The position numbers and the translations under genes are program-made. Below the pieces are notes generated by a model, which worked only from the letters and a program-made list of their open reading frames with translations, had not been told where the DNA came from and did not search any database. Positions 31,595 to 33,102 of a stretch of DNA of 64,000 bases are shown here, piece by piece (within the stretch, counting starts at the first letter, position 1; every line of letters begins with the position of its first letter). Source of the DNA: Phycisphaerales bacterium. Lineage in GTDB: Bacteria > Planctomycetota > Phycisphaerae > Phycisphaerales > SM1A02. The stretch is taken from positions 1-64,000 of the forward strand of contig JASMLR010000010.1 in assembly GCA_030748575.1 (NCBI GenBank), in the 5' to 3' direction.

Positions 31595-32266
31595 ATGACA
31601 CGGGCACTGATTGGAACAAAGGTGGGCATGACCAGATGGTTCATGGAGGACGGCACGAACGTCCCCGTGACCGTGCTGGAAGTCGGTCCCTGCGTCGTGA
31701 CTCAGGTGAAGACCACAGAAACCGACGGCTACGATGCGGTTCAACTCGGGCATGGCGACGTGAAGGCTCGTCGCAGCACGATGCCCGTCATCGGACACGA
31801 CCATCGCGCCGGGAGCGGGCCGCTTCGAACGCACCGCGAGATTCGCGGTGAGACGGATGCTGCACTTGGTGACACGCTCGACGTCTCCATCTTTGAAGAC
31901 GCGAAGTTCGTGGACGTGCTCGGGACGAGCAAAGGCAAGGGCTTCCAGGGCGGCATGAAGCGGCACAACTTCCGAGGCCTCGAGGCCTCGCACGGCGTGA
32001 AGCGTCGTCACCGGTCTCCCGGGTCCATCAATGGTCATGCGACCAACCTCGGAACCGGGCCGAAGATCAAAAAGGGCAAGCGGATGGCTGGCCACATGGG
32101 CCACGTCTCCGTCACCAGTCGATCGATGCCCGTCGTGTCGATCGATGCGGATCGAAATCTCATCATGGTGCAGGGCACCGTGCCCGGACCGGTCGGTGGA
32201 TCGGTTCTGGTGCGTGATGCTGTCCGCCTCAACAAACAGAAAGCGAAGGTTGCCAAGGCGGGCTGA
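31595..32266 (+). CDS. rplC: 50S ribosomal protein L3
   Basis: L3 helps nucleate 50S assembly and reaches toward the peptidyl-transferase centre. The 223 residues carry IGTKVGMTRWFMEDGTNVPVTVLEVGP at the N-terminus and GKGFQGGMKRHNFRG...RSPGSI...GKRMAGHMG in the central finger. It is slightly longer than usual (about 209). A non-coding insert of 185 nt separates it from rplD, unusual inside this operon. Confidence 0.97.
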   Translation: MTRALIGTKVGMTRWFMEDGTNVPVTVLEVGPCVVTQVKTTETDGYDAVQLGHGDVKARRSTMPVIGHDHRAGSGPLRTHREIRGETDAALGDTLDVSIFEDAKFVDVLGTSKGKGFQGGMKRHNFRGLEASHGVKRRHRSPGSINGHATNLGTGPKIKKGKRMAGHMGHVSVTSRSMPVVSIDADRNLIMVQGTVPGPVGGSVLVRDAVRLNKQKAKVAKAG

Positions 32267-32451
32267 AGCTCGCTGAAACGGCTCAGGCCGAACACGACAA
32301 CCCGAATCGGAACGCCGAGTCGCAGTTCTACCTCCCACCCCCGAAGGCCCGTCATCGGGAACCACGGGTGGGACCATCTGAAAGGATGGTTCGAAGCATG
32401 GCGAGGAGAGCCAGGCGCAAACGGTCCTCAGGACCACAGGTGTAGAGAACG
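32267..32451 (+). promoter_or_regulatory. Structured insert between rplC and rplD
   Basis: These 185 nt are the longest gap in the operon. A main hairpin at 32333-32373 pairs TCCCACCC with GGGTGGGA, and an alternative inner stem pairs CCCGA with TCGGG. ACCAT at 32373 region can pair with ATGGT around the micro-ORF start, and GGTCC-TCA-GGACC (32423-32435) lies just before rplD. The layout resembles a ribosomal-protein autoregulatory leader, with L4 as the obvious candidate ligand; that is inference. Confidence 0.5.
32386..32445 (+). CDS. Candidate 19-residue Arg-rich leader peptide before rplD
   Basis: An ATG at 32386 opens a 19-codon frame, MVRSMARRARRKRSSGPQV, that stops 6 nt before the rplD start. 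It is too short for the ORF track. Eight of 19 residues are Arg or Lys. The only ribosome-site candidate (AAAGG) is too close, so the inner ATG (MARRARRKR, 32398) may be used instead. It could be a leader peptide coupling translation to rplD, a tiny ribosome-associated basic peptide, or chance. Confidence 0.3.
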   Translation: MVRSMARRARRKRSSGPQV

Positions 32452-33102
32452 ATGATTGATCTTCCCGTACTCAACAAATCGGGCAAGCAGGTTGACACCC
32501 TTGCCATCGACGAAACCGCACTCGGAAACGAGGTGCGCCCCGACCTGCTGAAGCAGGCCTACGTCATGTATCACGCGAACCGTCGTCAGGGCTCCGCCCG
32601 GACGAAGAGTCGTGGCATGGTGGAAGGCTCGACTCGCAAGTTGTACCGCCAGAAGGGGACCGGCAACGCTCGCGTTGGCAATGCCCGCACGGTCGTTCGC
32701 AAGGGTGGTGGTGTGGCCTTCGCAAAGACCAAGACCACTGAGACCTTCCGCAAGAAGATGCCCAAGGCCATGCGGCGTCTGGCGAATCGAAATGCCCTGC
32801 TCGCGAAACTGGTTGACGGCGAGGTCAAGTGCATCGACGCCCTGGACTTCGACGTCCCTCGCACCAAGGACATGAAGAAGGTTCTTGCCTCGTGCGGTGT
32901 GGACCGCACGTGCCTCGTTGCCCTGGACGAGGAGAACCGCAACGCAGCCATGTCCGCCCGCAACCTCGCGGACGTGGACATCATCCGCATCGACCAGCTC
33001 AATGCGTTCGAAATGCTCAATCACCGGTACCTGCTCGTGGACCGCGCTTCACTCGAGGCGTGGCTCGCTGCGGATGCCTCTGCAGATCAGGAGGCCGCGT
33101 GA
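32452..33102 (+). CDS. rplD: 50S ribosomal protein L4
   Basis: L4 lines the exit tunnel and in other bacteria represses the S10 operon. The 216 residues contain RQGSARTKSRGMVEGSTRKLYRQKGTGNARVGNARTVVRKGGGVAF, the conserved extended loop, and end with an acidic-Ala tail (ADASADQEAA). Its leader insert and micro-ORF immediately upstream suggest special control. The stop overlaps the rplW start by one base (TGATG). Confidence 0.97.
   Translation: MIDLPVLNKSGKQVDTLAIDETALGNEVRPDLLKQAYVMYHANRRQGSARTKSRGMVEGSTRKLYRQKGTGNARVGNARTVVRKGGGVAFAKTKTTETFRKKMPKAMRRLANRNALLAKLVDGEVKCIDALDFDVPRTKDMKKVLASCGVDRTCLVALDEENRNAAMSARNLADVDIIRIDQLNAFEMLNHRYLLVDRASLEAWLAADASADQEAA

Follow-up and report, generated by a model that had tools for sequence, protein, structure and literature searches.

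A conserved structured RNA between rplC and rplD of the Phycisphaerales, a candidate ribosomal protein leader

Introduction

Ribosomal protein genes are densely packed in the operon analyzed here, with one exception. Why should a gap of 185 nt separate rplC and rplD, when the other genes of the same cluster overlap or are at most about 20 nt apart? The window, i.e., the whole stretch of DNA that was analyzed, comprises 64,000 nt of a metagenome-assembled genome (MAG) of a planctomycete, and the closest named relatives according to uL3 are MAGs of Phycisphaerae and Phycisphaera species. Its open reading frames reveal the gene order rpsJ, rplC, rplD, rplW, rplB and onward; rplD overlaps rplW, and the later genes follow closely. 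A preliminary description of the sequence had noted the gap, two hairpins and a micro-ORF within it, and had offered three readings: a regulatory leader for L4, a translation-coupled leader peptide, or a tiny ribosomal peptide. The gap in the otherwise tight operon is real. The features that are discussed below are compiled in Table 1.

Table 1. Features of the rplC-rplD region, with positions in the window
Feature	Position	Strand	Basis
rplC (uL3), upstream gene	31595..32266	+	ORF and relatives
Whole intergenic RNA element (Phycisphaerales rplD leader)	32267..32451	+	conserved position and motifs in 57/58 order members; covariation
Small hairpin in P1 position, CGGC..GCCG; in the window's genus without the AAGGCC/GGAACC loop	32279..32290	+	
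Conserved CGACAA between P1 and P0	32295..32300	+	
P0 5' strand ACGCC, complementary to GGTGT of the rplD ribosome-binding region	32312..32316	+	RNAalifold in g1, f4 and f5 alignments; modest shuffle test
Near-invariant GAGUC, order-wide	32317..32321	+	
P2 basal stem 5' strand GTTCTACC	32325..32332	+	RNAalifold in the window's genus
Hairpin with relocated module, internal loop of GAAGGCC (32343-32349) and GGAACCAC (32358-32365)	32334..32372	+	partial R1 match 32340-32368
Hairpin CCATCTGAAAGGATGG, GNRA-type tetraloop GAAA (GAGA or GGAA in congeners)	32374..32389	+	
19-codon micro-ORF, judged not a gene	32386..32445	+	frame not conserved
P2 basal stem 3' strand GCGAGGAGAGC	32401..32411	+	
Conserved AGGCGC (GGCGAA in most other genera)	32413..32418	+	
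P3 hairpin GGTCC-TCA-GGACC (GGTCCTCAGGACC)	32423..32435	+	U-A/C-G covariation in genus; stems here in most of the order
rplD Shine-Dalgarno region AGGTGT = P0 3' strand	32438..32443	+	
rplD (uL4), first controlled gene in the proposed reading	32452..33102	+	

Results

The gap is structured and contains an element found throughout one order

The folding of the gap is better than that of dinucleotide shuffles (z = -2.86; 1 of 200 shuffles was equally good). At least two hairpins are present, namely the two that had been noted before, CCATCTGAAAGGATGG and GGTCCTCAGGACC, and a further CCC...GGG hairpin is located around 32334-32372. Neither a terminator-like nor a sigma-70-like site was found in the gap region.

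The rplC-rplD gap was retrieved from 58 genomes of the genus, the family and the order of the window (Phycisphaerales-like, six families). The element is present between the two genes in 57 of them and in all six families, and these gaps of about 130-410 nt have an identical order of motifs: an internal-loop hairpin with AAGGYC/GRAACC (P1), CGACA, RCC(U)GAGUC, P2, GGCGAA, P3, and the rplD Shine-Dalgarno sequence, which in most genomes is an AGGUG 7-14 nt upstream of rplD. The only examined member of the order without the element is G053, the gap of which (locus L038) has a length of 38 nt and is devoid of the motifs, and it represents a natural case of loss. In the other orders of the class, the gap measures between -4 and about 180 nt at loci with an identified rplD start, and no motifs were recognized by eye. 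The element was also not seen in other phyla, where gap lengths lie between about -80 and 51 nt and are mostly within 25 nt. Therefore, the insert appears to be characteristic of a single order. A scan of the class with the covariance model R1, which is described below, yielded matches in the same order and one weak match outside of it, and a scan of the phylum yielded two weak matches in 199 genomes, which is about the chance level at that cut-off. Both scans gave one match per hit genome; their filters were strict and known divergent members were missed, so that the scans alone are no proof of absence.

Two local peculiarities were observed. At four loci of family f2 (L055, L056, L058, L059) the gaps have a length of about 265-280 nt and contain extra long hairpins around the core, which suggests a lineage-specific expansion of the element. 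At L029:1190-1422 (-) the start of the gap resembles a truncated C-terminus of rplC, which suggests either a nonsense or frame mutation of recent date or an error in the assembly.

The core of the element covaries

An alignment of 11 genera revealed a core of two domains. P1 is a hairpin whose two sides carry GAAGGCC and GGAACC(A/G)C, respectively, and in P2 an apical hairpin tops the stem CCCUGCC...GGAGGG. In this seed alignment 89% of the cells are paired, and two-sided compensatory changes occur in 17 of 24 pairs. The covariation score is 0.438, compared to 0.140 after shuffling, and none of 500 shuffles reached any of the five measures, in a control that ignores the relatedness of the sequences. 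When the pairing partner was slid by one to three columns the signal was lost, a control that is partly circular because the structure had been drawn from the same seed sequences. Covariation of the stems in related genomes, which the preliminary description had named as a check, was thus found. The resulting model R1 spans only P1 and P2, because seed alignments that included P3 and the Shine-Dalgarno sequence were misaligned. In each of the six families it has matches at the expected place, the scores of which fall with distance, and in 51 matches, aligned by fitting to the model, two-sided changes occur in 22 of the 24 pairs. At L016:1282-1488 (-), the usually invariant GG/CC pairs beside an AA bulge are, judged by eye, apparently exchanged to CC/GG, while the bulge is kept; this would be a double compensatory change in a part of the loop that is invariant elsewhere.

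The gap contains a conserved, covarying, cis-acting structured RNA at a fixed place, and not a peptide gene.

Pairing with the Shine-Dalgarno sequence

A helix, P0, can form between the GG of the Shine-Dalgarno sequence and the CC of CCGAGUC. For family f5, RNAalifold recovered, from the sequences only, ACC/GGU, GUC/GGC and P3 with compensatory changes, and also P2; for the genus of the window it recovered ACGCC/GGUGU (P0), P2 and P3, and for family f4 ACC..GG and GUC/GGC. P0 was not recovered in the fold of family f2. Among 64 sequences, the first variable position of P0 is paired in 48, compared to 43.8 expected (608 of 20000 shuffles were as high), and the second position showed no excess of pairing over shuffles. 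A P0 of at least 3 bp is possible in 54 of the 64 sequences, compared to 49.3 in shuffles (72 of 3000 shuffles), and the summed length of P0 was not significant (710 of 10000). These statistics are modest because P0 is short and partly invariant. In single-sequence ensembles the probability of P0 exceeds 0.5 for only 16 of the 64 sequences, and the Shine-Dalgarno sequence usually has some pairing partner (median 0.68); in the fold model of the window itself its GG is paired elsewhere (0.90) and P0 has a value of about 0. Such low probabilities would suit a weak helix that is stabilized by a bound protein, without being a proof of it. Taken as predictions from alignments and folds, the formation of P0 and the occlusion of the rplD start site by sequestration of the Shine-Dalgarno sequence are modestly supported. 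The sequence of P3 is highly variable, with 53 distinct stems among 63 sequences, and the mean longest stem is 4.8, compared to 3.7 after shuffling.

The internal-loop module has a different location in the genus of the window

In most of the other examined genera of family f1 the AAGGCC/GGAACC module resides in P1. In the genus of the window the GAAGGCC/GGAACCAC module is found in an arm of P2, and a plain hairpin occupies the P1 position. Because of this location R1 matches the window only via the module. The module pattern occurs once in the window, compared to 0.05 expected occurrences, and the loop pattern alone is found elsewhere in the genomes at about the control level.

Similarity to the L4 site of 23S rRNA was not found

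No 23S gene was found in the MAG of the window (G000), from which it was probably lost in the assembly, and therefore the 23S rRNAs of relatives were used. The L4 site, which we take to lie in domain I, was not mimicked above background in any of three tests. The hairpin CCACCUGAAAGGGUGG-UCCGAAG of the window's genus resembles helix 19 and the adjoining linker of 23S rRNA, CCACCUGGAAAGGUGG-ACCAAAG, and this candidate was rejected, as other places in 23S rRNA score equally. The L4-site segment of planctomycete 23S rRNA was not enriched, since an average of 43% of the other segments scored as high for the genus, and 58% for the family, and a search of 23S rRNA with the covariance model gave nothing significant.

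The micro-ORF is not conserved

The ORF MVRSMARRARRKRSSGPQV, which stops 6 nt before rplD, is present as described. It had been proposed that an ACCAT/ATGGT pairing hides its start; the pairing is correct, and the conserved part is the hairpin and not the ATG. Among seven genomes of the genus the frame runs to the identical stop in three (L002, L003, L005), of which L005 lacks a start codon at the corresponding place; of the remaining four, the frame ends early in one and is shifted in three. No homolog of the ORF was seen beyond the genus, where the ORFs of the gaps are all unrelated. The Arg-rich character of the translation results from purine-rich motifs of the RNA, namely GGAGnGnnAGGCG and the Shine-Dalgarno AGGTG, being read in one frame.

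Discussion

We regard it as probable that the gap represents an intra-operon ribosomal protein leader that conceals the start of rplD and for which L4 is the most likely binding partner. A leader is suggested because a conserved structure precedes a ribosomal protein gene and is predicted to reach into its ribosome-binding site, and because the counterpart in Escherichia coli is regulated by L4. The leader part of the earlier proposal of a regulatory leader for L4 is borne out by the covariation of stems in relatives, and L4 is its predicted ligand. We infer that the ligand would be a protein, that this protein would be L4, and also the sign of the regulation and the coupling to the downstream genes. 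Translational control is preferred over attenuation, because a terminator-like site is missing in the region.

The mRNA between rplC and rplD would fold into the hairpin P1, followed by a three-way junction of P0, P2 and P3, in which P0 would be formed by the RCC of RCC(U)GAGUC and the GGY at the Shine-Dalgarno sequence of rplD. Binding of a free ribosomal protein, with L4 as the likeliest one, to the AAGGYC/GRAACC loop, CGACA, GAGUC and GGCGAA may stabilize the weak P0, so that ribosomes would be unable to start at rplD or, by coupling, at the tightly packed later genes. Excess rRNA would draw off L4, and the rplD site would open. More specifically, the element may represent a class of autoregulatory mRNA that is new and restricted to a single order, and that senses free L4 via the AAGGYC/GRAACC module, which would have been moved from P1 to P2 in the genus of the window; this version is proposed tentatively, at slightly less than an even chance.

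The same cis-regulatory RNA may have a different ligand, i.e., L3, L23, L2 or L22, or a small molecule, and would then be a leader or riboswitch that does not sense L4. The location between rplC and rplD would suit a retro-control by L3 as well as a control by L4, and the lack of a detectable resemblance to the 23S L4 site also speaks for this alternative. However, rplD is the first controlled gene, L4 is an established regulator of the operon in E. coli (PMC10931766), and no riboswitch family of Rfam was matched, so that we consider another ligand unlikely, if worth keeping in mind. L4 is favored over other ligands since its gene directly follows the element and since there is a precedent in E. 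coli. Mimicry of 23S rRNA was not above background, although leaders of this kind need not mimic rRNA (PMC7247131), and L4 is therefore kept at the level of a prediction.

Several stable hairpins in an intercistronic location would also be expected of a processing or stability element, e.g., a site for RNase III or RNase E, that senses nothing and sets protein ratios by cleavage of the mRNA between rplC and rplD. However, the conserved unpaired GAGUC, GGCGAA and AAGGCC/GGAACC exceed the needs of a cleavage hairpin, and the structure is predicted to extend into the Shine-Dalgarno sequence, which makes this explanation improbable. That the 19-codon ORF encodes a leader peptide or a tiny ribosomal protein is extremely improbable. 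The ORF is present, but it was rejected as a gene, because its frame is shared by only three of seven congeners and lacks a valid start in one of these, and because no homolog was seen in other genera.

Our preferred reading, a ribosomal protein leader that is most likely bound by L4, was compared with known systems. In Rfam 15 no family was above the gathering threshold in the window, and only chance-level matches were obtained at E up to 5. In the str operon of E. coli, S7 has an intercistronic control site, which is similar in its placement inside a ribosomal protein operon, although the operon and the ligand are different. The same applies to the S8 site in the spc operon, a regulatory RNA that also acts on downstream genes; for S8 a retroregulation, i.e., a possible action on upstream genes, has been cited (PMC2864571). 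The S10 leader of E. coli, like the proposed one, is a structured mRNA region that controls an operon encoding L4, and L4 is known to regulate the S10 operon via transcription and translation, with an mRNA site that is poorly conserved between groups (PMC10931766); here, binding of L4 is predicted. However, the S10 leader is located upstream of rpsJ and also causes premature termination (PMC10931766), while the element of the window is located between rplC and rplD and lacks a terminator-like site. A candidate L4 leader of Archaeoglobi (Eckert et al., 2020; PMC7247131) has the same proposed ligand and is associated with rplC/rplD/rplW/rplB, but it is archaeal. The main text of that survey of 20 novel leaders does not mention planctomycetes, and no ribosomal protein leader of planctomycetes was found in the open-licence literature, in a search that was not exhaustive. 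Ribosomal protein leaders as a kind are known; the structure, the lineage and the placement in the middle of the operon before rplD appear to be new.

A covarying RNA that is found order-wide at a fixed place of an operon offers a directly testable candidate regulator in planctomycetes. If the proposed class is real, it would be a case in which nature has transplanted a domain within a regulatory RNA, and it would possibly be the first ribosomal protein leader described for planctomycetes. The moved module would then represent a natural experiment on which nucleotides are recognized by the ligand.
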